Shown one piece after another: positions 1 through 42,685 of a DNA stretch of 55,999 nt. The translations under genes were made by a program, and so were the position numbers. The notes under the pieces are model-generated. The model worked only from the letters and a program-made list of their open reading frames with translations. It had not been told where the DNA came from and made no database searches. The stretch covers positions 1 through 55,999 of the forward strand of contig JANBPT010000210.1 of NCBI GenBank assembly GCA_027575765.1, read 5' to 3'. Every line of letters begins with the position of its first letter. Within the stretch, counting starts at the first letter, position 1. This DNA comes from Tieghemiomyces parasiticus. Taxonomy: Eukaryota > Kickxellomycota > Dimargaritomycetes > Dimargaritales > Dimargaritaceae.

Positions 1-3000
1 CGACGGTCGGCTTTACCAATGGAGGTCAGGGGCAGGGCCTCCATCGACACAACCACCTCCGGGACCATGTAGTGGGGAAGCTTAGCCGCAATATGCTCCT
101 TCAGCGCATCGACCTGGACATCAGTGGGTGAGATGTAGACGACCAGGCACTTGCCTTTGACCAGGGCCACAGCGTTGGCTACACCGGGGAAGACCTGGCA
201 CGTACTTTCGATCTCACCCAGCTCGATACGAAAGCCGCGTAATTTCACTTGGAAGTCCTTGCGGCCTAGAACTTGTACCCCTCCATCATTGAGCCAGCAG
301 CCCATATCACCCGTACGGTATATTAGGCCAGGGGCGAATGGATTACCCACAAATACCTTGCTGGTCAACTCAGGTCGCTTCCAGTAACCCTCAGACACAC
401 CAGTCCCGCCAATACAGATTTCACCTGGTCGGCCGATAGGTACGGGGCGTAACTGGTCGTCCAGGATGAGACACAGCATATTTGCCATAGTAGTTCCGAC
501 GCTGATGTTGGCCTCAGATGTGATCAGTCTACCATGACTGAAAATGGTCGCTTCCGTGGCACCGTAAACGTTATATAGCCGAACCCTGTCAGACCATTTA
601 GCAACAGCACTAGGTTGGAATGCTTCACCACCGACCAGGAGGTGGGTTATGTTGCAGTAATCTGCGGGTTCAAGGGCCGCCAGGACCGAAGGGACTAGGA
701 AGCAGGCCGTGATGCGATGTAAGTCATTAAGAAGCTCCCCATCCTGGAAAACCAGGGTTCCACCGGCATGGAAGGCACCAAACATCTCGATTAAGAGAGC
801 ATCGAAGGAGAGGTTGGACATCTGGAGAAACCGGCAGTCGGGGAGCAACTGGAAACGTTCACTAAAAGCCAGGATAAAGTTGGCCAGGGAGCGGTGGGCG
901 ACCTGGACGCCCTTCGGCTGGCCAGTAGTTCCCGAAGTGAACACAATGTAGGCCAAGGAGTCAGGGGTATGCTCAATGGGATGTACTATAGACTCTTGCG
1001 TGGAATTGGTCAAGGCGCGGTCCGCATAGATAACTCGCTCCTGCGTGAGCCCAAGTTCGGCAACTAGATCGCTTTCAGTGGAATGGGTCACCACCCATGG
1101 GTCGTCCAGAAGGTCTACCATGTAGAGGAGGCGGTCCGGGGCGTTGTTGGCGTCCATGGGCACGCACACACCTCCCAGGAGGAGTACGGCAAGGTAGCTG
1201 AATATGAACTCAGGGCTGCGCGTAAATAAAAGTACCACTCGGTCGCCACAACGAGCGCCTTGGCTATGCAGGACAGCGGCAATGGCGCAGGCCCGGCGGT
1301 ACACCTCGGCGTAGGTGAACTGGTCGGTGGCGGACTCCAGGGCAATGGCGTCAGCACGAGTGGCCAAATGCTGGGTGAAGAACTGGTGGGCCAGCCAGTC
1401 CTTCTGCGGGAAGTCGATGGTGATGCCGTCGGACCACTGGCTGACCAGCGCCTGCTCTGCTGCAGGCAGGGTCAGGATGTTACCAAGTTTTCCAGTATGG
1501 CCGGAGACAATGGCAGCTAAGCAATGGTCGATGAAGTGGACTAGGTAGTGGGCGTAGCTCGGGTTGCAGTGTCGGGTCTGGTAACTCAGGTTCAGCATTA
1601 ACGTATCATCCTGGTCATAGAAATTGGCAGTGTACGCATACTCTGTAAAGTTTTGTCCGGAACGAGGGACGTAGTTGATTTGGTCGGTACGGGCGGAGGT
1701 CGTGGTCTCGTAGTTGTCGTAGACTAGGAGGGAGTTGAACAGGTCACTATCAGCATCCAACTTAGCCCACCGCTTGATATCGACTAGACTACATTGTTCG
1801 TACGCGGTGAGAGCCCCCGAGTCCGCATTGACTTGACGGAGGAAATCGGTGATAGTGCGGTTGTGGTCAACTCTAACGCGTAGGGGTAGAGTATTAATGC
1901 ACATACCCACCATACCTTCGATGCCAGGGACGGGCACGTTGCGACCCGACACGAGCACACCCAACGTAACCTCCTCATTCTCGCCAAGGTACCGCGCTAA
2001 GGTTAGGGCCCAGACGGCGCGAAGTAGGGAGTTTACGGTCAGCCCCATCCCACAGCAGAACTGTTTGATGGCGAGGAGGCTGGTGGACACGGGCTGACTA
2101 ATCTCACCGTGCTCAATTGGCTTGGCGTTGGGCTCTTTGGGGAACTGGATGGTGGGGTGCATCTTGACTCCATCCAGATTATCCCTCCAGAAAGCCATCA
2201 TGCCTTCCTGGTCAATGTGGGTCAGATGCTGGATAAATTCATGGTACTGGGGCCGTGGCTGAGTCTTCACGCCGTGGTAATACTCCAGGGATTCGGCTAT
2301 CACGATACTCTCCGACCAAGCGTCGAGCAAGGCGTGGTGGATCGTGGTGCAGAACAAGTGACGATCAGCCGGACCGTGGTAGACAGCAAAGCGAATCAGC
2401 GGACCAGTCAGGGTGAACCCACGCGCCCGGTCGGCGGCAAGGTGGTGGTGCTCGGCCTGATCAAGGCTTGCCAGGGGCTGGTCATGGTAGGTCCACTCGA
2501 AATCAGTGTCACGGAGTACCACCTGGAGGAAGGCATGCTGCGACTGGTCGGTGGGGACGAGGAACTTGGTACGCAGGATCTTGTGGGATTGGACGACCTG
2601 CGACCAGCTCTGGTGCAGTTTGGCCACGTCAAGCGGGCCCGTCAGGTCGTATGTCATCTGCACCATGTAGGTGCTGGGGTCTTTGAGAGTGCTGACGAGA
2701 AACCCCTGCTGCAGGCTGGACACGGGCAAGATATCCTCGATGGCCCCGGGCTCAACACCCAAGCTTGTCGCAACCTCAGCAGTCAGATCATCTATAGCCA
2801 CCCCAGAGGAAGCAACGAGTTCAAACGGCTGGTAGGCCATCGTGGTCAAGGGCGAGCTATCAAATTCTATGATACCGGCAAGCGCCGCAGGGGTGCCGTA
2901 CTGGAATATCTGCGCGATACTGACATGGATCCCATGGTCACGGCACAGTGAGGAGAGCCGGATGGCCGAGATGGAGTCCCCACCCAGTTGGAAGAAGGAG

Positions 3001-6000
3001 TCATGCGTATCGATCTCTGCCGCAGACAGGTTAAGTGTTTGAGCCATGGCCGCCACAACTAGGCGCTCCGCGTTGTTGCGGGGGCCCTGCGTCGTGCTAC
3101 CTCCATTGCGAACCAGTAGCGTAGGAACCAGCTTCTTAAGAGAACGGCGGTCCGCCTTGCCGTTATGGCTGAGTGGGAACTGGTCCAGGGCGAAGGTGAC
3201 TGTGGGTACCATATAGGCCGGGAGACGGGCAGCAGTAAAGGCCCTGACTTGGCAGACCGGTACGCCTTGGGGGGTTACAAAGGCGTACAGCTTACCATCC
3301 AACAGGACGGCCGCCGCCGATTCGACATCGGGGGTTTGGAGAATAACCGCCTCCACTTCGGTCAGTTCCACACGGTAGCCGCGGACCTTGACCTGGTCGT
3401 CCTTCCGGGCGATGTACTCCAACTTGCCGTCGAGCAGCCAGCGACCCAGATCGCCCGAACGATATAGTTGACCCTTGCCGGTGAACGGATTGGGCACGAA
3501 CTGGGTACGGTTCAGCTCAGGGAGGTTGAGGTAACCGCGTGTCACACAGGGACCGCCGAAACAGATTTCACCTGTGACCCCAAAAGGTACGGGACGCAGC
3601 TCAGCATCCAAGATGTAGCACTCCGTGTTGGGTATCGGATTGCCCACCGTGACCTGGTCGTCCGGCCCGAGCTGGATCGAATGCGTGGCGAACGCCTCTG
3701 CGGGGCCATACAGATTGAGCACTCGGCAGTGACGGGCCCAGCGTTGGGCGAGTAGGGTGGGCAGAGCTTCGCCGGCCGTGATGATTTGCTGCAAGTTGGG
3801 ATAATTGCCCGGATCAAGCATCGCCAAGACGGATGGTGTAATCATTACCGCCTCCACTCGCGGCAGCGTGTCCAGCAGCTCAGTGCGCACCACAAGCGTG
3901 CCCCCCTGGGCCAGGGTGGTGAGCACCTCGAGGATGAGGCAGTCGAATCCCAAGGCCATGTTCTGCATGAACCGTGTCCCGGGGGCAACCCCGTGCACCT
4001 TCTCCGACTGCTGGAGGTAGCTGGCCACTGTACGGTGTTCGATCGGCACTCCCTTGGGCCGACCGGTCGTACCTGATGTGTAGATGATGTGAGAGAGGTT
4101 GGCGGGTGAGACCTGCGGCAGGGTCACTAGGGCCTGGTTAGTGGGGCTGGAGTACATGATGGCCCCGATATCATGAACTTGGACCCCTGGCAGCTCATTG
4201 ATACTGGTAACCAATGCTGCATCAGTCACGTTGGACAGAATGTGCCGCATGCCACAGTCTTCGACAATGAGGCGAAGCCGGTCTAAGGGCAAGTCGGCAT
4301 CCAGCGGTACAAAGGCGCCGCCGGCCTGCAGGATGGCGATCATGCCCACTACCAGGGTGGGATGGCGCCGAATAAGCAGGCCAACTGGTTCTTCACGATG
4401 GACACCCTGGGAGAGGAGGTGACCAGCGACCTGGGTGGCCCGGTCGAAAAGTTCCTGGTAGGTCCAGCCGATAAGGCCCGTGTCGGGGTCGTCGTATTCT
4501 ACGGCGCTGGCGTCAGGGGTACGCCGGACCTGCTGGGCGACTAGATCATGCACACAGACGTCACAGTTGACCGCCGAAGTAGGTCGGGCGAGGACATCGG
4601 TCACCGCTTGAAGCTCACTAGGGGAGAGGAGCTGCAGGCTCGAGAGAGTTGCCACACCTTGACTATCCCCTCGCAGGCAGTCTACCAGTTGTGCGAAGAC
4701 GTTCCGAAGGTGCTGACCCAGGGCCTCAACGTAGGGCCCTGCAAAGGTGACACCGTCCCAGTTCAGAATGGCTGTAAGCTCACCGCGTTCAACTTGGGTG
4801 ATCACCGTCATGGCGTACTCGGTGGATTCGATGGCCCTGAAGTCGGAGAATGTCACGGCGTTAGTTTGGTTGTTGATGTCGGTGTCGGGATAGTTCTCAT
4901 AGACCAGCAACGTATTGAACATGTCAGTGACGGGGACGCTGCTCTCCACCCAGCGGTCGAGTTGAGCCAAATGACAGTGCTCTACGGTAACCAGCCGTTG
5001 GCTCTGCTCATTGATGCTCCGCAGGAAGTCACTGAGCAGCACATTTGCGTCGATTTGGATACGGAACGGAATGGTACTGATGAGACAGCCAAGCATCCCC
5101 TCAACTCCGGGCAAGTCCAAGGCGCGACCCGACACGGTATTGCCAAACACCAGATCGGACTGACCCGTGTAGCGGTGGAGGAGGTAGGCCCAGGCGGCCT
5201 TGAGCAGGGTGTACACAGTCAACCCGCAGTCTTGCACCAGGGTCTGCAGGTGGGCCGCGTCATTGTGGATCACAATATGGTACTCGGTATTGGTGCAGGG
5301 AGAACTGGGTTCCTTTGGCAGATTCAGCGTCGTCGGTTGCTCGATACCTCGCAAGTAGTCCACCCAAACGGCCCGCGCCCCCTTGTCATCCAGGTTGCCT
5401 ATGTGCTCCACGTAAGCGGAAAATTCTACCGCGGGTGATAAACTGGCCGACGGACCAGACGAAAGGAAGTGGCGCAGTTCCTGCGTAAAGATGCCAAACG
5501 ACCACCCATCGATTAACGCGTGGTGAATCGTCATGATCAAGCGAGTGCTAGTCTGGGTGGCCGGTGCAACACAGCAGCGGAGTAGCGGCTGGTCCGGGGT
5601 GAAGCCCAGGGCCTTGTCGCTACGTAGGTAGTCCTCCTCGTCCTGTACGCCAACCTCTGACCAGCACCCAACTGCTCGCCAGCCGAATCGAGGCCGCCGT
5701 GACACCACCTGGATGCCATTGCTCCGGGCGTTGCTGAAGGAGGTTAGGAAAACGGTGCGCAGGATGGAGTGGCGGGCAACGACTGCCTCGAGGGCGTGGA
5801 GGAGAACGTCGCTGTCGCTAACACCGTTGATGGTCATGGCGGACTGGAGAAGGTATTCGGTGGGGTCCTTGGCGGTAGCCGTCCAGAGTCCCTGCTGCAT
5901 GGGCGTCATGGGGTACAGATTCTCCACCTCGGCGACGGTGAGTCCCAGGGTGGGGAGATCGGCGACGATCTTGGCCATGTCATTGAGACTAGCCTCGAGC

Positions 6001-9000
6001 AAAGGGAAGTCTGACGGAACCCACAGGCCGGTAAGATCGAGGGCAGCAACTTCAGCCAAGCACTTGACTAGCTCGTCGCCCAAGACCGCTACGGTAACAG
6101 TTTGGACCACCTGCGGGCAGTAGTTGACTGTCAGTTCTAGGCCGGTATTGGTTTGTCGGCCGAGCACCTCCAGCACGTGTGGCCGGAGCTCCTCAGGATC
6201 GCAAGTGGGGATGTGGCCAACAAGATCGTGGCGAACGACCCAGGGTGCCCTTCCCTGTCCGGTAAGGGCATAGTCACCTGTAGTGCGGCCCAGGAAGTTG
6301 AACACGACCCCCATGGGGCAATAGCTGGGAGTCGAGTCGGGATTTGAAGTGAGGGGCGTTGTCGACCAGCCGGCCTCCAGACCGTGGAAGGGTAGACCCC
6401 GTTTTGCGTATTTGACCTGGCGAAGGTAGCCACGCAAGTCACCCGAGGGTGGGCCAGTCACGGTAATGGGTAGGATAGTAGTGAACCAGCCCACCGTGCG
6501 GCTGAGGTCTAGTCCATCATGCCAGGGGTAACGCCCATGTGACTCCGTATGTACCGTGGTGGTGGGGGACTGGGTCACTATGGCCAATGCTCCGCATACG
6601 GCAGCCAGGAGGAGCTCGTCAAGGCGGAAGGAATCACCGGCGGTCTGAATCAGCGATTCGGAAACCTCGGTGGGAACCTGTACGGTGTAGCTGACCTCGC
6701 CCGCCGCTACGTTGGCGGCCAATGAAGCGGGACTATGCAGCAAGGACCAAGGCCGGCCGGCTACCGCGGGCTCTGGGTCTAAGGTGGTCGCAGTCACCGT
6801 TTGGCGCCATCGGGCGAGCTCCGTGGCCCAGGAGGCGAAATGCAGACGGGGCGGTGGAGGCACCTGGCCGTTCAACAGTGTGGCGAGGTCTTCCAGCAAG
6901 ATGGACCAGGATACGAGGTCCACGACCAAGTGGTGGATCGTCAGGAAGAGCAGGGACGGCGCTGGACCAGAGCCGTCCGCTCGAGGGTCCAGATGAACCA
7001 GTGCGGCTGCTACGTTGCGGCCCTGGTGGATGTCGATCGCCTGCTGCACTTGGCAACAGAGCTGGGACAACCCCTGCTCGGTACAGGTAGCCTCGTGGAC
7101 CTGGTGGTCCAGGGAAGTGAACGGGACCGGTATGCTCTGGGACCACTGTTCTTCCGGGTCATGGCTAAACCGGGTGCGCAGCACAGGGTGGTGGTTGACC
7201 AGAAGGAGTAGGGCCGTTTCAAGGGTGTCCCGGGATACGGGACGAGTCAGTTCTAGCAAGAAAGACTGGTCGAAGCGATTGACGTTCCGCAGACCCTGGG
7301 CGAAGAACCAGGATTGTATCGAAGTCAGGGGGAAAGGCACCCCGTAGGGAATAGGGGTCAACTCGGACTTGACCATCCGCCCCAGGGGTTCGACTGCGGT
7401 AGCCACTGCAGAAAGGGGCTGGTTTTTGAGCAGGGCAGGGACCGGTAGACGATAGCCCGACTGGCGGCATTGCGCGGAGACCTGGATGGCCGAGATGGAG
7501 TCCCCGCCGAGCTTAAAGAACGTGAGATGGCCGATGGTCGGGTCCCGCGGCAAACCCAACACGCTGGCCACCGCGGCCCATAGGACCAGTAGGGCGTCGC
7601 CTTGGACCTGCCCATGTGATTCGCCCTGCGCGGATCGCTGCAGCGTGCGGAGGTACTCTGTAAACAGCGCAAGCAGGGCTGGTTGGTCCGCCTTGCCATT
7701 GGGAGTGCAAGGAATGCGGTCGAGGCCTAAGCTGTGGTTAGGTACCATGTAGGCCGGCAGGACCCTCCGTAGTGCCGATGCAATGGATTGCTCGTCCAGC
7801 TGATGGGGGCATATAAAGGCCACCAGACTGCGCTCGTGGACCAGGACATGGGCGTCTTGTACACCCAGAAGGCCGAGGATGGCCCCGCGCACCTCGGCCA
7901 ACTCAATACGGAACCCGCGCAGCTTGACCTGGTCGTCGCGACGGCCCAGGCTCTCTACCTCACCGCTGGGTAGCCAGCGGCCCAGGTCGCCGGTACGGTA
8001 CACTAGACCGTCAGAGTAGGGCAGACTAACGAACTTGGCGTCGTTGAGATCGGGCCGGTTGACGTAGCCTGCGCTGACCCCCAGGCCGCCGACGCAGATT
8101 TCTCCTACCACGCCGATCGGCACAAGCCGGTCGAACCGGTCCACGATAAAGCATTCGCTGCCAGTGATGGGCCGACCGATGGTGACAGGTCGGCCAGGTT
8201 CAACCTCCCAGGCATGGCTGCAGACGGTTATCTCCGTCGGGCCGTACTGGTTTTGCACCCGGCAGTAGGGTAGCCATTTCGCTGCCAGTTCCGCTGGCAA
8301 CGGCTCACCGGCAGTAGTGATACGACGCAGGTTGGGATAGTCAGTAGGGCTAAGGGACCCGAGGACAGAGGGGGTCATCAAAACGCTCTCTGCCCGGCAC
8401 AGGGCGGCTGGGATGTCGCCGTCGCTAAATACCAGGGTTGATGATGTAGAAAGCGGCGACAGCGCCACGAGGATAAAAGAGTCAAACCCCACGGCCATGA
8501 CTTGCAGGACACGGGAACCAGGGGTGGAGCAGAGCGTGGCCTCTGGCGCAAGCAGTAGGTTGGTGAGGCCGGCATGCCGGATCATGACGCCCTTGGGCTG
8601 ACCGGTCGTTCCCGACGTGAAAATAATGTAGGCTAGGTCTTCAGGGTAGGGTTGGTAAGCGAAGGGCTCAGGGCTGGGGCCAATCTCGGCCCGCAGTAGC
8701 CTTAACCCGGGCAGGGCTTCCGTCCAGGTCACTTCGGCGTCAGTCAGGTTCAGAACGTGGGTGCACTGCGCCGCCTTGACCATATAGCGCTGGCGCTCTG
8801 CAGGCAGTTTCCGGTCGACAGGGACGTAGACGGCCCGGATCAGCCAGAGGGCCAGCATGGTCATGACGGTGGCTGGGCAACTCTCCACAATGACAGCCAC
8901 CCGCTCCTGCGGCTGAACGCTATGGCCCTGTAGGGCGCGGGCCAGGTGGTGGATTCGGGCATGCATTTCGGCGTAGGTTACAGCCTCGATCTGGGATTCG

Positions 9001-12000
9001 AGGGCCATCGTGCCGGGGCTGTGCTGGACGCTGTCACGGAAGAGGGTGAGGGCACTGATGCTGCTGGCCCTGGAAGGGTCGTACTTGCCAGGGTTCCGGC
9101 CAAACTGGTCGAGTAGTAGACGCTCCTCCGCCGGGCAGACCAAAGGGGTCAGGGAGAGGGATCGGGAGCCGGTGCGGGTGACCTGGCAGTAGTGTAGCAG
9201 GTTGTTCCCGAGGTGCTGGATGGTGGTGGACTTAAAGAGGTCGGGGTTGTACTGGAGAGTCATGGCGGGCTGCCGGTCGGTGAGGTCGAGGCGAACGATC
9301 AGGTCGTGCCACAGGGCAACGCACGATTGGTGGTAAATGCCCGGTTCAGCAAAGTCAACGTGCACGCCGACACGGACAGGGTGCCAGCGTGAGTAGGCTG
9401 GTGGCCGTGCTAGGGCAGTGTAGGGGTCGTAGTCGGGGGTCAGGTAACACAGGGAGCGACGTAGCTGCTGGGATAGGGTTGTACTGAGATCATTAAGGGT
9501 TGACGCACCTACCAGGCCCTGGACTCGCACGGGACAGGAGGCGTGGGCCAATGCGGGCGAGTCTAGCCCTTCGCATTGTAACCCCCGATTAAGGAGCATA
9601 TCTACCATTACACCCTCAGCGCCGCTTATTCTCTCCAGATAGGACCCCACCAGTGCAGCCCATGGGACAGGCAGGGCCTGGTAGTCTTTGACGAGCGAGG
9701 TCAACCCACCGATGACCCCCCGGTCCAGGTCGAAGCGGACGGAGGTAGAATGAAACGTGGGTACTCGCGGGCGGGGTTGGCTGGGCGGTAGGCCCTGGTC
9801 CGTGGGTGCTTCTGCCAGCAAGGCCTCCCAGTATGCACGGGCGGGCTGGTCGGACATCCCGGGGTTAGGGGCGACCGCATAGGCTTGCGTGAGCGACGGG
9901 CTAATGGCGTACCCTCGACCTTCGTGCTTCGCGCCTATTGCGAGCTGGAGCTCATAAGTGAGTTGGTTGAAGAGAGCATCGGGGGCCAGGATCGGGTGTG
10001 CACGGACGATGAGCTCTGGTGGTTCGGGGCGGTAGGCGACAGTTAGCAAATCGGTGCGGACCAAGAGGTTGCTGTTCCCTTCGAGTTCGTCGCAGCGGAG
10101 AGCTAGGAATCCAGTGGTGGCTGGCGCTTTTAGGTGTGAATGCCTTGGGCCAAGAACATGGGTCAGAAGGCGGCCCTCCTCCTTCCGTACGGTAGTGCGC
10201 AGCCATTCGACCGTGTCCATGAACCGGTCGAGGATACACTTAAGGTCTGACTGCGTGACCTGGTCGGGAGGCCGGAGTCTGGCTTGGTGGTGAAACTGGC
10301 TGGGGTCCTCCGAGAGTTCGCAGGCAAGCCAGACCTGGGTCTGATACGGTGTAGCACTCGCTGTGCGTAGATCCACTAAACTGGCGCGTGCCGCCTGGTC
10401 GGCGGGATCGGACCTAAGAGCGAGCCGAGCGGCTGGGGGTGTGATTTGCCTGGCCAATGCGGGCCAGTTATCACAGGCCACGATGGACCGGATGCTCAGG
10501 GACGTACCAAAACGCTGGCTGATGCGGTATTGCAGTTGCAAAAGTAAGGTGGGCTTGGTGAGTACGCACGTCCAGACATCTTCGGTCAGTTTGGCCTCAA
10601 GCCCGACGCCCAGGAGTAGATCGGTACAGGTCACCGCTATCCATCTATTAACACTGTCCAAGGGTACAATCCGATCCTCACCGTCCGACACTAAAAGACA
10701 TGCCTCCGCGAGTCGGATGAACTCCCCATCATCTGCGCCGGACAGGTGGGGGAAAGAATCGAGCGAGATAATCGCGGCGGGCACGAGGGCCGAGGGAAGG
10801 CTGAACCCGAGTAGTAAAGCCCTAAGCGAATCGCACTCTGCCTCCGCAGCCGCGGTGCGGGTTACAATGCGGCCGTCGCAGGTCACCACAGAGTACGGCG
10901 AATCCAACCCCTTGTCGGCCAGATACCGGTCCAGGGTTACAAGGGGGATCTGGACGCCATCAGCGGTGATGTGCCGTCCAGGACTTCTCGGTACCGGATC
11001 AGAATGACCCAGCGACACCTCGCTGATTGTGGCGTTGTCCGACGCCCCTGTAAGTGTGGACAGCACGGAGCTGATCAGCTGCACCAGTCGAGCGATATCA
11101 GCCTCGCCACAGAACATTCGTTCGTAGTAGCACTTGACGCCGACGGCCCCGGACTCGTCGACAAAGTTAACCGAGAGTGGGTACTCGGTAAACTCATGGA
11201 GCTGCAACAAATCCATGGCAACGTCGCCGCCCTGGAGGGATGCCTGGGGGAAATTCTCCAAACCGCCAATGGCATGGAACAGAGGCGAAGTGGAAGTGTG
11301 ACTGCCCCAGCCGTTAACCTTAACTAGACTGGTATTCTCATACGGAATCATCCGGGTGGCGTCGGCTTGGAGCTGCTGGAGCCACGCACCAAGGGGCTGA
11401 TCGGTCAAGAGGAAACGCACTGGAACGGTGTTGAGGCAGGGGCCGACGACGTTAGCGATACCTGGGATGTCCAGGTTACGACCCGACACCACGAAGCCAA
11501 TGACGAGGTCGTCCCGGGCCAGGTAGTGACCCAGCACCAAGGCGTAGGTAGCCCTGAGAAGGGTGGAGAGAGTCACACCGAACCGCTGGGCGGTCAGGAG
11601 TAGGGCAGGCTTGGAGACAGCGAGGGGGCAGTGGTATAATGCGGATCCGTGATCTCCAGTAGGCTCCACGGCGAGCATGGGCGCCGGTGTGGGTCGCACC
11701 CCGTCAAGGTACTCTGCCCAGAATACACGGGCCACCTCCTCCTTCTGGGTAACTACCTGCTCGACTACCTGGCGGAAGGAAGAGATGTCCCCCCTGGTCG
11801 GCATTTCAGGGGATGTGTACAGCTGGCACAGGTCATGTAGCAGCAGTGGGATCGACCAACCGTCGACCAGGGCGTGATGGATGGTAATGACTTGCAGGTA
11901 CTCATTGGGGCACTCGGCGGGGGACACGTGGACCCGGACCATGGGTCGGGCCATGTCGAAGCCCAGGGTACGATTCTCGTTGAAAAAGTCAGTCAGGGAA

Positions 12001-15000
12001 GGAAGGGGTGCCTCGGCTAGACTCCAGGCCAGCGGTGCGCGGTGTAGAACAACCTGGGCAAGCCCGTTGCCACGCGGTGCGGCGGTCGGAATGAAGACAG
12101 TACGTAGGACGCTGTGGCGCTGAAGTAAGTTCACCCAAGCTTGCTGGAGCCGGTCGAGATCCACGTTACCGGAGAAACTCACCGCTGCTTGAACCAGGTA
12201 GGCCGAGGGGTCCTGCAGCGTAGCAACGAGCAGACCGCCCTGCATGGGGGTACAGGGCAGGATATCCGCTACGCCGGAAGCAGCAATGCCGCGTTCCTCC
12301 AGGTCGGTCAGAAGGGCGTCGAATTCCTGGGCGGTGGGCTGGAGTAGCGGCGCATCGAATCGAGTGAGAAGCGCCTGGACGGAGGCCGTTGGGGTGGCGG
12401 CAAGGTGCTCGAGGTCTTGGCGCCACAGGCTAATCAGTTGCTCAGCCCATTGGGTCCCATACACCCGCGGATTGTACTCCATGACCAGGCGCAGCCGGTC
12501 CTGGTTGACGAGGGGCATGGGGTTGATGTCGAAGATGACGTGCTCGTCGGGGGCAAAGTCGTGTAGGCCGAAGCGGTCATCCCACTCGATACTAACCGCA
12601 CCACTGCCTTCACCACCCGTGCCCGCATTGCCGAACCGACCAAAGTAGTTGAACTGGACGTCAAGGTGATCGGGGGTTTTGGCCAGCAGCTTGGTCCGCT
12701 GAGCTGGGTCCACCCCCGGCATGTGGCGGAGTAGACTGTAGGGGAAACCACGCACAGGGATCTGCTGCATCGCCTCCTTGGTATGATGCAGAGTGGCTAG
12801 GACCGAGCTGCCCAGGGGTACGTCCAGGACCAAGGGGTACAGGGCGGTGAACCAGCCTACGGTGCGACTCACATCCATGGCGTCCGACCAGGGCTCCCGA
12901 CCGTGGCCCTCCATCACAAAGGAGACCTGGGTGGTACCCAACGCCTGGCAGTAGGCCCGGGCAAAGGTGGCCAGGAGCATGTCGCGCGGGGTGACCCTCC
13001 ATTGTGGCGCCAATTGCAGCAGGAGCCGGGTGGTGAACTCCCGGTCGAATTCGTAGGATATGGATAGGCGGGCCGCGGTGGGCACTGGGTCAAGGACCTC
13101 TGGGGGAGGCAGGAGTTGGCGGTTATCCACCGTCATGCTCTGCACGGGCCAGGCATCGGCAGTGAGGGTCCGGGCGTAGTCATCCAACTGGCTGCACCAG
13201 GTCTGGAAGGACAGGGTCTTGGGCGGCAGCTGACCCCCGGTGAGCAGGGTCTGCAGGTCCTCGATCAGGACGCGCCAGGAGACCAGGTCAACCAGGACGT
13301 GGTGGATGGTCCAGAACAGACGGGCTGGCTCGGACTCGGCGCCAGTGTGAATCAGGAAGGCTGCCATGACAGGGCCGTCCGTGAGGTGCAGGCTGGACTG
13401 GACCTTCAAAATGAAGTCGGCATAGTCCACCTCGTTCACGGTGGCCTCGGTCACAGGGATGTGGCTGGGGATGGCCTCGGTGGTTGGGATGTACTGCCTC
13501 CAAGCGCCCTCGTCGTTTAGATGGAACCGAGCACGTAGGATGTCATGGTGGTTAGCCAGTTGGACTAGAGCGTGGCTAATCTGCCCGAGGGTAACCGACT
13601 GATCCACACGCAGGGTGAAGGACTGGTTGAAGTGGTGGGGGTTGCGGAACGGCAGACCATAGAACCAGCGCTGAATCGGGGTCAGGTCGACACAGCCCTG
13701 GACCTGGTGCTGATATTCCCCGGAGGCGGCCGTGGTTAGCGGGGTCAGTCGGGCGGCCAAGGCGCGGAGCTGGCGGCATTCGTAGATGAGCGGCACGGTG
13801 GCCTTGTACCCGAGCTGCCGGCATTTGGATACGAGCAGGATGGCCGAAATGGAGTCACCGCCAATACGGAAGAAGTCGTCGGTTGTCCCAATGTGGTCAC
13901 CAGGGAGCTGGAGGATCTGGGCCCAGGCCTCACGCAGGCGCAGTTCCAAGTCAGTGAGGCTTTGGGATTGAGCGGGGACGATCTCTAGGAGGGACTGAGT
14001 TGCGGTCGGTAAGGCCTTGCGGTCGACCTTACCGTTGGCGGTCAGCGAGAGGCGGGCCACGGGAACGACGCGATCAGGTACCATAAACCTGGCCAAACGG
14101 CTGCGTAGGTGGTCAAGCAAGCCCACGGTGTCCACCGACTGGGGTTCCACAAACAAGGCCAGAGAATTACTTTGAACTGAAGCTACGGCAAGCTGAACGG
14201 CGGGAAAGCTGGTGGCGGCAGCCTCGACCTCCTCGAGTTCGATACGGAAGCCCCGGAGTTTGATCTGGTGGTCCATGCGACCCAGCAGGTCGACGTGGCC
14301 ATTGGACAGCCAACGGGCTCGGTCACCCGTCAAATACACGCGACCGGGACCGAAAGGGTTAGCGATGAACTTCTGGGCGGTGAGATCCGGCAGGTTGCAG
14401 TAACCACGGGCAACGCTCAAACCACCGATTAGAAGCTGGCCCGGGGCACCCAGGGGCACTAGCCGCAGGTGGTCGTCCACAATATAGCATAAGTAGTTGG
14501 CACTGGGTGGACCGACCGAGATGTAGTTAGGAGCAGCGAGAACTAGGGTATTGGACGTCACCGTAGTTTCGGTGGGACCGTAGACGTTGGCCAACTTGCA
14601 GTGGCCACGCCATTTGGCATGAAGGTCAGCAGTGACGTGTTCACCGGCCAAGACCAGAAACGCTAGCTGCGGATACTGACCAGGGTTCAAGCGGGTGGCA
14701 AACGACGGTGTGACGATAGCCGAGTGCACACTCTGAAGGTCAGCCAGTAAGTCGGCACCGGGAATGACCACTGTCCCACCTTGGCAAAGAGTCCTGAGGA
14801 GACTCCATAGGATACCGTCGAAGCCCAGTGAGAGGACTAGTAGGTCACGCTTGCCGGGTCCATAGTCGTCTGCATAGGCCAGATCGGTAGCAAAATTAGC
14901 CAGATTGCCGTGCTCGACCATAACACCCTTGGGTTGCCCTGTGGTACCCGAGGTGTACACAATGTAGGCCAAGTCAGTGGACTGTGGGTGATGGGCAACA

Positions 15001-19607: not shown

Positions 19608-22267
19608 GGTCACGCGTCACTACCCGCTCTATTGAGGCACCATGTCTGCTCGTTGGCCCAGCTCTCACGGCACCTTAAACAGTTCGTAACATGGTAGTTC
19701 TTTCTAATAGTTGATATTCCTGTCATGGTTCTAATTAATTGCCCAATGGAAATATCTAAATTAGTTGGATACCAGTGACTGTTTGGCCCGAGTCCTCGTT
19801 CTGTAAAGTATGCATGATTCAAGCTACATCTTCAATTTTCGATCTCCTAGATGTATTTTATGCGGGAAAACCTTCTATCAAGGTGTTGTATTCTCGCTGT
19901 AGCCTGAGGTAGGTGTGATTTCAGAAGGTCGGGTTAAATTAATAAAGTTAATAATAAGTAAGCTTGTTGGGATGATTGCATTCAATTCCCAGCAGGCGGA
20001 TTCGCCGGTACTTGAATATGCCCGGCTCGAGGCTTCTCATAACTCGGTTGATCATAGGCTGAAACACCATCCAAGTCACAGCAGAGATCATTTCATCTAA
20101 ATTTTAGTCCCTTTAATCGTTCTACGCTATTGTAAGTCGACCTATGTTGCCAATGGAGACTCATGGCCGCGACCAATGGGTACATGCTAAATTATTACAT
20201 AACCGAATCTGCGGGGTGTATTATTGGGAGGCCCTGTAGAGTCTACATATTACGTAAGACACGAGCTCAGATGAATAAGTCCGCCACCTTTATCTTTCCA
20301 AAGTAACTACAGAATCGGGCAGTGGAGAGCTTTATGTAAAGTGATGCTTTCAAGATTTCTAAGGAAAAAAGCGGTACGCCGCTTGATTTTGAAGTGGATA
20401 TTATATTTAGAGTCTCCCGTGCCCTTTTAACACACCATTACACGACATTAGCGCATGTCAGATACGTTACGTTCTTACATTGGGGCTAGTTATGCTAGAA
20501 AAAAGAAAGTTCAATGAAAAAAATGGTTGTTAGGACCAAACGCTTCAGTATAATGATTAAAGCTGAAGGGTCACATCGAATCGTCTGATGATTAGATGGT
20601 CGACCCCGTAAAGTTTTAGAGCCACGAAATTCTACCATGAGAAGCCGCAGGTGAGTCGGCGGGCTATAAGGAAGGGATTGAATTGGATTGCCGATTGGAC
20701 CGTCAGTGAGGAAGTGAAAGTCAAAGCAGCATACCACGATACTCACCTATGGGCCGGAAGCTTGCCTCCAGCCCACGAGACGGGGGCGATGGTAGCGTGT
20801 CGTCCGCACTTATCTCTAACCTCCCCTACCTGGGTTTATCGCCCCCGACAGTGACTTTTGGCAAGACTCTGTCTAACGCGATCGAGGCCTCAGCGCTTCG
20901 ACAGGAGACTAGGCAAGATCATGCGCTAGTTTCCATATGGCACAGCGAAGCCGGCAATCGGAAGCGACGAAGAGCGCTTCACCGGTCTCGAAGGAGAGTG
21001 AGGACGATGGGGGAAGGCCAAAGGAAGTTGGGCAACCGCCGAGTGTTGGGCTGCTCGCACGACGGTGCCACCTATGCACATACGACCAGTCAGCAGCCCA
21101 GCCCGCAGAATGTGCTCGTACGGTGTAACGAAGGATTCTGTAAGGGGACGCTTTTTTTTCGCCCGGCACTTCACCTCTCCCCCACTTTCCCCTCGTAACG
21201 AAGCGTCACGAAAACAAAAAAATGTCTTTGGGATGAAAGAATGCTTTGACGGCACAAGCGTGTTGCACGTTGGCACAGGGAGGGGGGGCGTGTAGGTCTT
21301 TCTGCAATGTTATTAGCCAGAGTGACTTGGCTATCTATATTTTTTTCACTGCCAGCCTTTTCGCGACACCTCCTCCGCCATCGGGTGGCTCACTTTGGTG
21401 TCACCCAGGAGGGCAACAGGATCAAGGTTGGCGGCCATGTCGCCCCCGCGGTCCGCGACAAGTAAAAGAGAAGAGTAATTGATAGTAGGCGTAGCCTTGA
21501 AGTGAAGTATAGTATATAAACAGCGTCCGTGTCTAACATCTCTAAGGTCTACTCCTCGTGTACCTGCCCCTCCTCTTTGATAACGTTAGTTTCCTATATG
21601 TCCTGAGCTCACCTCTACGCGCACTGCACCAGGCCTATCGCGTCGATTCTTGATTCCGGATTGTCGGATCTCTTGTGACCTCTCCCCACCACTGGGCTGG
21701 ATACTTCCATTAAGGTGACGGCTGTTATAAGTAGCTTTTTCAGATTGAGACCACCACGCACCTCCTCCCTTTAATCCCAAGTATATTATAGTAGGTATGT
21801 TGAACGCGCCTGTTAGTTTAGCAGGTCCTGGGTTGGGACTCACCGCTGTCTATAACTTGGTACCCGACCAGATTATACGGCGCTTTGGCGACCACCTGGT
21901 ATCCCATAGGTCATCCTACCTTTCTGCGCTAAACGGCCCCTAAATTCGAATATTGGCGACCGGCACTATCGCCCCTGCTCCCCTGCTGTACATCGATCTA
22001 ATCCAGCGCACCGCCTTCCCCAACTTACTTAAACTACCGTTTATAATCATACCATACCTCCGCCCGTCCATCTGACCTACCAACCGTTCCACAGAAACCC
22101 TCTCCCGCCTTCCTCGTCCCCTTTCCGACCCTCTATTCACCTTGTACACCCCGTTCGCGGCCCGGATAGGTGGCGGTTATAGTTGTTAGCTCTACTACTA
22201 CTCTCTACGCCTTTCACAGCGCTTCGCTTTTTCATCCGCCCAACAACTCTACCTGTGGCTTGTGATC
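19608..22267. other. Spacer upstream of the phosphate transporter; no firm gene
   Basis: No gene could be supported. Around 20740-21280 the base composition rises to coding-like GC and several frames are open on both strands: an ATG-started 149-codon frame at 20749-21198 plus, a 63-codon frame at 20937-21128 plus, and 116 codons at 20926-21276 minus. None shows a known domain and they contradict each other. From about 21.5 kb the DNA is probably the promoter and 5' leader of the transporter. A TATATAA element lies near 21512, some 750 bases before the ATG. Confidence 0.5.
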
Positions 22268-37918: not shown

Positions 37919-40900
37919 ATGGGTAAGAAGAAGGGAGGAAAGAAGGCCCAAGATGATTATTGGTAAGTCACATCGCGCCTGCCCCAGGATCCGGATCCCG
38001 ACTCAGTGCAGTCCTTAAGCGCACTGGGAACCCCACCTACTCCCATCCGGAGACTCACTCACCCTCCTCCGAACCCGCCGTCCGCAACACCCACCATCGT
38101 CGCAGGGACAACGAGTTTGAGAACGACCAAGCGCTGGTCGAGGCCACCCCAGTGGAACTCGCAGCCGCCGATGTCCCCTCCGGAGAGGAGGACGCCGGTC
38201 TCATGGGTATCATGAACCGCTCAAAAAACAAGAAGACCAAGAAGAAGAACAAGCTGGTCCTGGCGGACGAGCCCGAAGTCGAGGCGGAGGAGCCCGTCCC
38301 TGAGCCTGCGGGTGGGAAGAAGAAAGGCAAGGGAAAGAAGAACCGGCGGGACGACTACGACTACGAGGACCCCTACGCTAACCTCGACGAGGAAGTCCCA
38401 CCGCCACCGGCCGCTGACGAGGAGGAGGTGGAAGAGGAGGAGCCCATTCCGGCCCCTGCGGCGGGAAAGAAGAAGGGCAAGGGCAAGAAGGGCAAGCGGG
38501 ACGACTACGAGGACCCGTATGCCAACCTTGACGAGGAGGTGCCCCCGCCCGCCGCACCCGCGTCCGAACCCAAGAGCAAAGCCAAAGTAAAGGGCAAGGC
38601 GAAGGCCGAACCGACCCCGGCTCCCGCGCCCGCCGCCACCCCGGTCGCCACCCCGGCTCCTTCGGCCGAGAAGAAGACCGCCAAGCCCAAAAAGAAGAAC
38701 GCCAATATCAGTGCGCTGCAAAAGCTGGTAGAGGCACGCAAGGCGGCCGAGGAGGAGGAACGTCTCCGGCAAGAAGAGGAACGGCGGCTGATCGAAGAAG
38801 AGGAGCGACGCCTTGAAGAAGAAGAGCGCCTAGCTGAGGAGGCCGAGGCCGCCAAGAAAGAGGCTGAACGGGTAAGTAGCACTACCAGACAGCACCCGGC
38901 CGATAGACGCAGCTAGCCCAGGCGACATGACCAGAGCCGACTGAGCGAACGAATGCGATATCGGCTGCTCACTACTAACGGTCCATTTCAAATTCACCCT
39001 CATCTCCCTTCACCATCTCCGGAACACCTCACAGGCACGGAAGGAGCAGCTACGCAAGGAGGGCAAGTTGCTGACTAAGTCCCAGAAGGAGGCCCAGAAG
39101 CGCGCCCAGGCTCGTCTGCAGCAACTACTCGATTCGGGCGTTCAGGTCGCCGGCCTGCAAGAGTCGGGGGGCACCAGCTCGGGCAAGGGAAAGAAAGCCA
39201 GCTACAGCAAGCGTAAAAACAAGGGCAAGGGTGCCTCCGAAACCGAGGCCGTAACCGAATCCCTCAAGGGTCTGGCGGTCACTCCCACTCCGCCGGTCGA
39301 AACCCCGGCAGCCGCGGAAGACGACGACGACGAAGATGACTGGGAAAAGCTATTAGAGAGCGACCCGGAACCCGAGCCCGAGGTCAAGGAAGAGGGTGAG
39401 GGATCAGCCGAGAATTCCGACGACGATGACGACGACGACTCGGATGATGACTCCGACTCAGACGAGGAGGCCACGGCCGCCGAGCGAGAGGCTCAGCGGC
39501 GCAAGCAGGAGGCCGCCCAGCGTCGCGAGAAGCGCCACGAGGAGGCTTTGGCCGCCCGCAGTGCCGAGGATCTGCGCTCCCCCATTTGTTGTATCCTGGG
39601 CCATGTCGACACGGGTAAGTGTTTCGGCCTGGGCACTGAGATTCTGATGGCAGACGGTACCGTGCGTGCCGTGGAGACCATCACCGACGGCGACTACGTA
39701 CTGGGCGACGACGGGACCCCGCGCCTGGTCACGGGCACCACCCGTGGCCACGGTCCTATGTTCCGCATCGACGCTGCCGACCCAGCCACCCTTGTCCGTG
39801 GCTTCGTGTGCAATGATGCCCACATCCTGGTGCTCCAAGTGACTGACGCCATCACGGTCCGACACGCCAGCCACACGGCTGGCGAGGCCCCCACGGGTGT
39901 GTACGAAGTGGACTACCTCGAGTTCGCTCCGGGGGCCGAGTCTGAAGAGGACGGCGGCGCCGCCCGCCCTGATCTAGACACCTTCGTCGAGCGCACCGCA
40001 ACCTTCCCGTACCCGAGCGAAGAGTACGCTGACGTGGCCCTCGCCGCCCAGGCCGCCGAACACTTTGCCACGGGGCTGCGGAGCTTCCACGCCCGCCACC
40101 TGTGGCAGCCCAGCGTGACCACCTTTATGGCCGCCCCGGAAAGCGTGCAGGCTCGCGCCCGCATGTACCACCCAGAAACCGTCACGGCCGCCCACCCGCG
40201 CGCCCCGTTTGCCGACCTGGTCCGCACCCTGCCCGGGACGTCGGACATCAATGATCAGGGCCTGGAGGATCTAGCCTGGGCCACTGGTTACGCCTTCGGT
40301 ACCGCGCGCTGGTTCCGTCGTGGAGGGAACGACGTGGACAGCGGGGCCGAGGCAACCACGCCCGAGGACGAAGTGAGCCCGGGGAATGCTCACCAGCCCG
40401 CTCCGCCGGCCTACGTGGCCATCACCGAGGCCTACCCCAAGGTGATGCGTGCTCTGGCCGGCCACAGCTACATGGAGCTCCTGGACCTGGCCCAGTGGGG
40501 CAATGCCACTAAAGTGCGTCGCCCGTTCATTGCTGGTTACCTCGAGGCCGTCGCCGTGGTCACACCCGTCGCGGGGGTGCGGGTACCCATCCGTGGGGTC
40601 CGCACCGAACGGGCCGCCCGCTTAGCCACCCTGCTCCGCGCCGCGGGTCTGACCGTCCGGGCGGCGCCTGAGGAAGGCGAAACTCTTGAGGCCCCGTCGA
40701 CGACCTTTGACTGGTGCACAGTTGCCGGCACGGCCCTCGTGGACTTGCCCTACCGGTCCGCCGATTTTGCTGCTACTATCGCGGCCACCATCCCGCCGGG
40801 CAACCCGGTCGGCGTGCGCAATTGGGCCGTGCGGATCACCAAGCTCCAGGAAGATGCCTTCTACGGGTTCTGCGTCGATGACAACCACCGGTTCCTGCTG

Positions 40901-42685
40901 TCCAGTTTGACGGTCACTCACAACACCAAGCTGCTGGACAAGATCCGCCAGACCAACGTCCAGGAAGGCGAAGCCGGTGGGATCACGCAGCAGATCGGCG
41001 CCACCTACTTCCCGATGGATGCCATTAAGGCCAAGACGGCCAAACTCAACGCCAGTGGCAAGGTTGAGTACAAAGTGCCCGGACTGCTCGTCATTGATAC
41101 CCCCGGGCACGAGTCGTTCACCAACCTGCGCTCCCGTGGGTCGTCGTTGTGTAACATTGCCATCCTGGTGGTGGACATTATGCACGGCCTCGAACCCCAG
41201 ACCTTGGAATCGATTCGCCTGCTGCGGGACCGCAAGACGCCTTTCATCGTGGCCCTCAACAAGATCGACCGGCTTTACGGATGGCAACCCGTCCCGGACA
41301 ACCCCTTCCGTGACAGCCTGGCGAAGCAGACCGCGGCCGTTCAGCGCGAGTTTGAGAGCCGCGTGGAGGCCACCATCCTGGCCTTCGCCGAGCAGGGGCT
41401 TAACTCCTGTCTGTACTACAAGAACAAGAACCTCGGTAAGTACGTGTCCCTGGTGCCCACATCGGCGCACAGCGGGGAGGGTATCCCGGATCTGCTGCTC
41501 CTGCTGGTCAGCCTGACCCAGTCCCGTATGACAGAGAAGCTCATGTACCTATCCGAGCTGGAGTGCACGGTGCTCGAGGTCAAGGTGATCGAGGGCCTGG
41601 GTACTACCATTGACGTGGTCCTGTCCAACGGTGTGTTGAACGAAGGCGACCGCATCGTCGTGTGCGGTCTGAACGGACCCATCACCACCAACGTGCGGGC
41701 TCTGCTCACCCCGCAGCCCCTTCGCGAACTGCGCGTCAAGTCAGCCTACGTGCACCACAAGTCCATCAAGGCCGCCATGGGCGTCAAGATCTGCGCACCG
41801 GACCTGGAGAAGGCCATTGCTGGGTCGCGCCTCCTGGTGGTCGGCCCTGACGATGACGAGGAGGACCTCGAGGAACTGGTGATGGAAGACCTGGAGAACA
41901 TGCTCAACTCGATCCGCAAGGTGGACAAGGGCGTATACGTGCAGGCCTCGACCTTGGGCTCCCTGGAGGCTCTGCTGGAATTCTTGCGCACGTCGGAGAT
42001 CCCGGTTTCCGGCATCAACATTGGACCGGTGTTCAAGCGCGACGTAATCCGTGCCGCCACCATGCTGGAGCGGGCCAAGGAGTACGCCGTGATGCTCTGC
42101 TTCGACGTCAAGGTGGATCGCGACGCCATGGAGCTGGCGCAGGAACTGGGCGTCCGCGTGTTCACGGCCGAGATTATCTACCACCTGTTTGACCAGTTTA
42201 AGGCCTACTCGGCCTCGATCACTGAACAGAAGCGTAAGGACCAGGCCCCGGCGGCGGTGTTCCCCTGCGTGCTGCGCATGATCCCAGGTGCGATCTTCAA
42301 TAAGCGCGAACCTATCGTGATTGGTGTGGACGTTATCGAAGGAGCCCTGCGCACCGGTACCCCCGTGTGTGTAGTCGAGGAGGACCCCGAGACCAAGACC
42401 CACACCGTTGTGCCCCTCGGCAAGGTGACCAGTATCGAGCAGAACCACAAGTCGCTGGATATGGTCAAGAAGGGGCAGGCCGCCGGCGGCGTCGCCATCA
42501 AGATTGAATGCCCCGTGTACGAGACGGCCAAGATGTATGGCCGCCACTTCACCGAGAAGCAGGACATTTATTCCCTCATCAGCCGCGGGTCCATTGACGT
42601 GCTCAAGGAGTCGTTCCGTAAGGACGTGTCTAAGGAGGAGTGGGCACTGATTGTGCGCCTCAAGAAGGTCCTTGGCGTTGCCTAA
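37919..42685 (+). CDS. FUN12: Translation initiation factor eIF5B, interrupted by an intein
   Basis: Three exons, 37919-37962, 38106-38871 and 39035-42685. Introns are 143 nt (splitting the TGG of QDDYW-DNEFEND) and 163 nt; both have GTAAGT donors and CAG acceptors. The precursor has 1486 residues. Removing the 435-residue intein (466-900) leaves 1051, close to yeast Fun12 (1002). The N-terminal part is Lys/Glu/Pro-rich with a tandem repeat and acidic runs. The GTPase core follows: G1 GHVDTGK-[intein]-T, G2 [11 protein letters not shown]3 DTPGHE, G4 NKID. Then come domain II, the IF2-like domain III, the long helix and domain IV, ending [16 protein letters not shown]. eIF5B joins the 60S subunit to the initiating 40S in a GTP-dependent step. 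Because the intein splits the P-loop, the factor can bind GTP only after protein splicing. Confidence 0.97.
38287..38553 (+). repeat. In-frame tandem repeat in eIF5B N-terminal domain
   Basis: Two copies, 38287-38412 and 38437-38553, encode EEP[VI][14 protein letters not shown] followed by a [17 protein letters not shown] block. The spacing is 150 bases, joined by an acidic linker (ADEEEVEE). It lies in the poorly conserved, dispensable N-terminal region typical of eIF5B. Confidence 0.85.
39620..40924 (+). mobile_element. Intein in eIF5B P-loop (435 residues, endonuclease decayed)
   Basis: An in-frame insert from Cys (TGT 39620) to Asn (AAC 40922-40924), followed by Thr as +1 residue. Block [20 protein letters not shown], with GDYVLGDDG. 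Block [14 protein letters not shown] (His kept, the usual Thr is Asn). Block [15 protein letters not shown]. Block G: LTVTHN, with the His-Asn pair. So the Cys, His-Asn and Thr needed for class 1 protein splicing are present. The middle (about 130 to 380 of the intein) is where a LAGLIDADG homing endonuclease belongs. The best matches are [14 protein letters not shown] and [14 protein letters not shown], and both lack the catalytic Asp. A low-complexity acidic/Pro stretch ([20 protein letters not shown]) lies between them. Base composition equals that of the host gene. Confidence 0.95.

Follow-up and report, generated by a model that had tools for sequence, protein, structure and literature searches.

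An intein in the P-loop of the translation factor eIF5B of Tieghemiomyces parasiticus

How can an insert of 435 codons sit in the GTP-binding P-loop of an essential translation factor, and by what route did it arrive there? The question is raised by the gene for eIF5B in a stretch of 55,999 nucleotides from the fungus Tieghemiomyces parasiticus (contig JANBPT010000210.1), referred to below as the window, where exon 3 contains, at positions 39620..40924 of the forward strand, an in-frame insert without a stop codon. The insert lies exactly between the AAG (Lys) and the ACC (Thr) of the P-loop GHVDTGKT, such that GHVDTGK precedes it and TKLLD follows, and its translation starts with Cys and has LTVTHN at its C-terminal end. 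The reading we favour, at a probability of about 0.95, is that of a PF05203 intein that would be removed post-translationally by protein splicing, with an endonuclease that appears dead and a lineage that would earlier have spread horizontally to this same site.

The insert and its host gene

The host gene is identified by its extein, which matches the eIF5B/IF2 model NF003078 with E=1.1e-174, and by a model of three exons with GT-AG introns (Table 1), which codes for 1486 aa with the intein as residues 466-900, or 1051 aa without it, and which agrees with P0010, the public protein from the second haplotype, at 1451 of 1486 columns with 3 gap positions. By its sequence, the insert is an intein of the PI-SceI/VMA type (Hom_end_hint) with splice residues of the class 1 type. 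It matches Pfam PF05203 Hom_end_hint over model positions 1-228 of 228 (E=2.2e-23; 83.9 bits, the curated cut-off being 32.1), while a phmmer comparison with PI-SceI (E=8.3e-14) aligns two stretches, residues 1-86 and 299-435, which reach PI-SceI residues 1 and 454. It has all the residues expected of a class 1 intein, namely Cys1, a His in block B, the pair His434-Asn435, and Thr+1.

A first-pass annotation, made from the letters of the window, had proposed much of this. Its limits for the insert prove exact to the base by translation and flanks, its precursor of 1486 residues has the same length in our exon model, and its choice of eIF5B as host, with a Lys-Thr site in GHVDTGKT, is borne out by the NF003078 match and the flanking residues. 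Likewise, the match over the whole of PF05203 and at both ends of PI-SceI upholds its naming of an intein, and the splice residues that it listed (Cys1, penultimate His, Asn435, Thr+1) are in place. Its blocks A, B, F and G can be found as claimed, except that block B has NDAH where TxxH is canonical.

The aligned catalytic columns of the LAGLIDADG endonuclease hold Arg and Val, and thus no acid, with the first motif aligning poorly; Val311 stands opposite Asp326 of PI-SceI, as counted from the phmmer alignment. Part of the precursor in its unspliced form was modelled with AlphaFold2 on a 40-row alignment, with a mean predicted local distance difference test (pLDDT) score of 78.3. The model resembles structures of eIF5B GTPases and, along the insert, 11 listed PI-SceI chains (477-510 columns, E from 2.6e-22 to 5.8e-18, target template modelling (TM) score 0.57-0.67), and suggests that the endonuclease domain has been kept as a fold.

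Whereas the identity of the insert, its site, its splice residues and the missing acids are read directly from the letters, splicing itself is what we infer. The precursor would be translated with the intein in place, upon which, by the established chemistry of inteins, Cys1 would undergo an N-S acyl shift at the Lys-Cys junction, Thr+1 would attack next, Asn435 would cyclise with the help of His434, and the exteins would be joined to an intact GHVDTGKT in the shorter factor. The LAGLIDADG domain would persist as a fold devoid of catalytic acids and the intein would now be kept by descent, since the essential gene stays functional only if the insert is spliced out or deleted exactly.

Additional evidence comes from the second copy of the gene. 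The genome assembly (46.5 Mb, 1363 contigs) contains GTPase matches that are mostly paired, as expected of two haplotypes, and the second-haplotype eIF5B lies on contig C345, with an intein and C-extein found letter-for-letter within P0010 (Tieghemiomyces parasiticus). Both haplotypes carry the intein with the frame open over all 435 codons, differing at 17 of 435 residues (96% identical). Synonymous divergence is similar in intein (0.106) and C-extein (0.099), as is the G+C content at third codon positions (GC3; 0.80 and 0.83, respectively), and the ratio of nonsynonymous to synonymous divergence (dN/dS, omega) is 0.18 for the intein and 0.17 for the ex-endonuclease residues 96-395 (Fisher p 1.5e-7). 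Since this omega of 0.18 goes with about 18 nonsynonymous differences in the intein, compared with none in the C-extein (and 40 synonymous ones there), the insert is, on these two alleles, constrained, though less than the host protein. A dN/dS of 0.80 for the N-extein tail was discarded, as this stretch has haplotype indels and had not been aligned before counting.

Table 1. Features of the eIF5B gene in the window
Feature	Position	Strand	Basis
eIF5B exon 1	37919..37962	+	exon model; GT-AG intron; agrees with P0010
eIF5B exon 2	38106..38871	+	exon model
eIF5B exon 3 (with the P-loop, the intein, the GTPase and IF2 domains and the stop)	39035..42685	+	exon model, domain matches
N-extein end, P-loop GHVDTGK	39599..39619	+	translation
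Intein, 435 aa, Cys1 to Asn435	39620..40924	+	translation, Pfam, PI-SceI match, alignment with eIF5B inteins
Intein N-terminal splicing region, residues 1-95, blocks A and B (NDAH)	39620..39904	+	limit chosen by us
Linker and degenerate LAGLIDADG endonuclease, residues 96-395	39905..40804	+	limits chosen by us; acids missing from both aligned catalytic columns
Intein C-terminal splicing region, residues 396-435, blocks F and G, end VTHN	40805..40924	+	limit chosen by us
C-extein from Thr+1 (TKLLD)	40925..42682	+	domain matches, exon model

The frames scanned between positions 22262 and 53389 of the window belong to ordinary nuclear families (SPX/citrate transporter, SUN domain, DBP10-like helicase, Tcp11, WD40, acyl-CoA dehydrogenase), with 2 of 8 having no Pfam match.

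Occurrence and descent of eIF5B inteins

A search with the intein region in the context of a long protein returned 82 matches, 51 of which are eIF5Bs carrying a PF05203 intein. These comprise 5 from Dimargaritales (one being the second haplotype of T. parasiticus itself), Mycoemilia, 28 from Coemansia, 9 from Glomeromycotina, the Mucorales Cokeromyces and Benjaminiella, Sorochytrium, Batrachochytrium (P0056), the protist Anaeramoeba ignava, whose entry is already named intein-containing at NCBI, and 3 others. We extracted and aligned 29 of them, which with the window give 30 inteins; the rest are mostly Coemansia, partial, or without a recognisable junction. The window intein aligns end to end with all 29 (28 other species and the second haplotype) at the identical position, and the junction GHVD[TS]GK/C, the slash here and below marking the point of insertion, is clean in 27 of the 30, the other 3 having broken gene models there. 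A C-extein search gave 5271 matches, and among the best 120 the 96 new ones include 94 with an uninterrupted GHVDTGKT and 2 without a motif match, uninterrupted genes being found in three Harpellales, Basidiobolus, Entomophthora, kin of Mortierella and many Mucorales.

Green, Novikova and Belfort 2018 (PMC5784728) record three eIF5B (IF2) inteins in Chytridiomycota and Glomeromycota. Our literature search, with most subscription journals outside its reach, found no paper on eIF5B inteins in Kickxellomycotina. The Tieghemiomyces eIF5B intein is new and its kind already known. With 51 of the 82 matches being eIF5Bs that carry this family, nuclear eIF5B inteins are not the rarity that the first-pass annotation took them for, although its mention of one in Batrachochytrium is confirmed by P0056 and its guess at a different fungal lineage by a host in Dimargaritales. 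An essential translation factor with a P-loop intein is no curiosity of one chytrid but widespread among early-diverging fungi.

The history of these inteins differs from that of their hosts. In the tree of the 30 inteins, one sublineage unites Dimargaritales, Mycoemilia and Glomeromycotina and a second unites Coemansia, two Mucorales, jgi29, lgn47 and Sorochytrium, with Batrachochytrium beside it; the C-extein tree, used for the hosts, instead places Mycoemilia with Coemansia (support 95/82). In tree tests, the intein data reject a single Kickxellales clade (cost 122 log units, p 1.3e-5) and a single Kickxellomycotina clade (p 1.9e-6) while being compatible with Coemansia alone as a clade (p 0.17), and the host data in turn reject a grouping of Coemansia, the two Mucorales and jgi29 (cost 349, p 4.3e-40) as well as one of Mycoemilia and Spiromyces with Dimargaritales (p 6.7e-5). 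Since each of the two trees contradicts groupings of the other, the conclusion to be drawn from them is that the intein passed horizontally between distant fungi into one site; homing as its means and the direction of transfer we infer. The Dimargaritales inteins form one clade (99/95), and within this order descent looks vertical. Of the two histories between which the first-pass annotation left a choice, horizontal movement to the same site therefore holds between distant fungi, as the mutual rejections support, and vertical descent apparently within Dimargaritales.

Both endonuclease acids are kept in only one of the 30 inteins, that of jgi29 (P0029), and one acid in 4 others, such that 29 lack one or both. 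This entry is a cluster of 42 member sequences with an Umbelopsis-like eIF5B and the source label aIF-2/yIF-2. Its host eIF5B is sister to Umbelopsis (100/98), of which three sampled relatives are empty (P0095, P0099, P0103). On its sequence, jgi29 looks like the mobile stage of a homing cycle and Tieghemiomyces like a late stage.

Several observations weigh against the reading of a splicing-competent intein spread by horizontal transfer. Sorochytrium, which we take to be a blastocladiomycete, has an eIF5B (P0041) that falls inside Kickxellomycotina in the C-extein tree (98/89, flagged as a long branch), which weakens its case for transfer of the intein; a long-branch effect, a mislabelled entry or a gene transfer are the candidates. 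The constancy of HN before Thr in the 30 inteins is by construction, since the extraction pattern demanded it, and the pattern did not find HN in P0032, P0044 and P0051. Between the haplotypes, all 3 differences in blocks F-G are nonsynonymous and none synonymous, in what is a tiny sample, and the low omega does not separate a constraint on splicing from the mere need for an open frame. The superpositions of the precursor model on PI-SceI have large root-mean-square deviations (6.5-10.5). Finally, block B reads FVCNDAH, with Asn in place of the usual Thr of TxxH and the His kept; in Prp8 inteins, according to PMC6805012, this Thr is less conserved than the block B His.

The genome contains further inteins in Prp8, which on both haplotypes is a single frame of 4376 aa with five of them (contig C269, nt 752-13879, loci L028 and L029; contig C1124 from nt 5214, L030 and L031). 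Alignment with human Prp8 upholds four of the sites, the C edge of the fourth lying beyond the query, and motif and Pfam match uphold the fifth; omega is 0.16-0.35 for the inteins as against 0.03 for the exteins. The first, T1 (C269 nt 2426-3802), is of the PF14890/TIGR01445 type, unlike the other four, and sorts with prokaryote IF2 inteins in a splicing-domain tree, on a long branch. Seven Prp8 intein sites are known across species according to PMC6805012, and a literature search for the phrase 'five inteins' with Prp8 found no paper using it. A search of the genome for PF05203, PF14890, TIGR01445 and PF05204 matched only eIF5B and Prp8, with the proviso that a more diverged type could escape it.

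Rival accounts of identity, retention and origin

Could the segment be a spliceosomal intron, or an artefact of the gene model, instead of an intein? At the N edge, where a GGTAAGT occurs, GGTAAGTGT looks like a 5' splice site, and the public models of some relatives (P0062, P0075, P0090) remove most or all of the insert. Yet its edges have no room to shift (left 0, right 0), the searched stretch offers 15 GT-AG pairs in frame of which none restores GHVDTGKTK, the frame is open in both haplotypes and the insert is conserved at the protein level. The fixed edges and the lack of a P-loop-restoring pair among the 15 lead us to reject a spliceosomal intron, and the alternative as a whole retains a negligible chance. 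Among the public models, those for Dimargaris cristalligena (P0062), for a Coemansia spiralis entry (P0075) and for others lack most of the intein and have a broken P-loop; in eIF5B models P0062, P0075, P0090 and P0020-P0023 the intein has been removed as a false intron or the P-loop broken. False-intron calls of this kind by gene predictors hide inteins from surveys based on annotation. A different question is why the intein is kept, and here it could be supposed that splicing is regulated, with Cys1 sensing oxidants or metals and holding eIF5B as a precursor incapable of binding GTP, a stress switch that would pause translation initiation. The P-loop intein of Mycobacterium smegmatis DnaB is inhibited by reactive oxygen species (PMC6195587), and retention despite a dead endonuclease, with low omega, fits such a role. 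Conditional splicing in eIF5B is nevertheless a proposal by analogy with DnaB, the need for exact deletion suffices to explain retention, and the intein protein changes far faster than the extein (18 versus 0 nonsynonymous differences), so that we regard a switch as unlikely and return to persistence by descent.

As for origin, inteins also appear at this position in prokaryotes. A DNA pattern of GHVDHGK followed by Cys matched 90 stretches in prokaryote genomes, which by their upstream residues are 52 IF2-like, 31 aIF2-gamma-like and 7 other loci (6 of the 7 bacterial, with short frames), the IF2 and aIF2-gamma labels being our reading of the flanks. The 31, among loci L032-L121, are archaeal aIF2-gamma genes, seemingly split behind the P-loop Lys that also borders the insert in IF2, as in PEVNIGTAGHVDHGK followed directly by Cys. 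It might thus be argued that fungal eIF5B and archaeal IF2 inteins are one element, which came down with the gene and has disappeared from nearly all lineages. The identical junction, with HN/[TS][TS] at the far end of 40 of the 52 IF2-like loci, speaks for such ancient descent, which approximately unbiased (AU) tests do not reject: holding the two groups together costs 0.67 log units (p 0.478) without Prp8 T1 and aIF2-gamma inteins and 33.9 units (p 0.063) with them, both sets being chosen subsets and the smaller omitting two long rows of the larger. Conversely, the prokaryote IF2 inteins scanned are PF14890 in 3 of 3 cases, none with a PF05203 match; a fungal eIF5B profile hidden Markov model (HMM) gives 13 prokaryote rows -3.7 to 20.2 bits (8 of 13 below 5), whereas 23 P-loop inteins from phages, viral genes and metagenomes reach 74 to 233 bits, in a scoring that favours these 23, which came from similarity searches or were retrieved with an alignment that included eIF5B; and uninterrupted eIF5Bs predominate among the best C-extein matches, as described above. 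The splicing-domain tree (119 columns) splits off prokaryote IF2 inteins together with Prp8 T1 at 100/100, their attachment point being unsettled. Because of the profile scores and the Pfam families, the trees being undecided, independent arrival at the same P-loop is favoured: the two groups probably came separately, and common inheritance appears quite improbable.

A further account is that the endonuclease of this lineage read P-loop DNA and so moved the intein among unrelated nucleoside triphosphatase (NTPase) genes, eIF5B included. An alignment query of viral contigs gave at least 600 stretches, at least 374 of them related loci, of which the best 80 were kept, and the sites were counted in 70 of these after removal by eye of 10 near copies: 43 are at GK/[TS], 16 at /[TSC]GK and 11 elsewhere (in our reading, 6 in a deviant Walker A, 2 just before GKS, 1 truncated and 2 outside P-loops). 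The query held no extein, and thus the P-loop site was not selected for, although near copies still remain among the 70. The P-loop intein of a helicase, P0074, whose endonuclease motifs look intact as read from the alignment, is the best match of the eIF5B HMM (233 bits); together with 14 eIF5B inteins it is separated from 12 phage, viral and metagenome inteins at 100/100, falling inside the eIF5B side with the Coemansia/chytrid lineage (99/93), a grouping which suggests a jump between genes. Against this, the case is that of one helicase only, the position of which is unsettled in a larger tree set, itself a selection, the smaller set, without Prp8 and Anaeramoeba inteins, having been chosen after the result of the larger was seen, and the eIF5B inteins alone as one clade are not rejected (p 0.067). 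Moreover, since Lys/Thr in P-loops is a classic site of bacterial and archaeal inteins (PMC5050341), a shared preference for it need not mean transfer. Single queries of viral contigs with the window intein and with P0074 gave 3 and 2 pattern matches, respectively, none of them a relative. One metagenome protein of 571 aa (P0002) carries two inteins in one P-loop, three residues apart (GKPG/C..HN/TGK/C..HN/TT); P0002, P0004 and P0005 are presumably A32-like virus packaging ATPases; a Pfam scan gave no extein family for them.

We hold tentatively, at somewhat less than even odds, both to this movement among genes and to the wider picture in which the eIF5B inteins would be a branch of a lineage hopping between P-loops, both among NTPase genes (ATPases of viruses and phages, a helicase, eIF5B) and among distant fungi, whose endonuclease would then have died, in nearly all sampled hosts, leaving the insert fixed and still constrained. 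With jgi29 beside 29 acid-losing inteins, direct tests become feasible for the homing cycle, for lasting retention in its absence and for the targeting of P-loops across genes.

Comparison with known systems

One well-known counterpart, PI-SceI of the yeast VMA1 intein, shares with the Tieghemiomyces intein the Pfam family, a sequence match at both ends and the predicted Hint and LAGLIDADG fold, and differs from it in site and in activity: PI-SceI is an active nuclease inserted just ahead of Cys-Gly-Lys in its P-loop, with Asp326, whereas here the site is Lys/Thr and the aligned residue Val311. Four of the five Prp8 inteins of the same genome belong to the same Pfam family, but fungal Prp8 inteins lie outside P-loops and T1 is of the PF14890/TIGR01445 type. 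The archaeal and Patescibacteria IF2 inteins have in common with ours the gene family, by flanks, and an identical GK/C start, while being of the PF14890 type (3 of 3 scanned) with near-zero eIF5B-profile scores. P-loop inteins of phage, viral-contig and metagenome NTPases (helicases, terminases, DnaB) show the same PF05203 and mostly the same spot in the P-loop, yet their hosts are not translation factors, and the 12 sampled stand opposite eIF5B and P0074 on the 100/100 branch. The inteins recorded in PMC5784728 occupy the same host gene; those of Batrachochytrium, Rhizophagus and Funneliformis, perhaps its entries, align end to end with the Tieghemiomyces intein at the identical site. In comparison with that set, the Tieghemiomyces intein adds a new host order, has no acid at either catalytic column, and belongs to the sublineage CFxxGT...TVTHN, which is common to Glomeromycotina and Mycoemilia.

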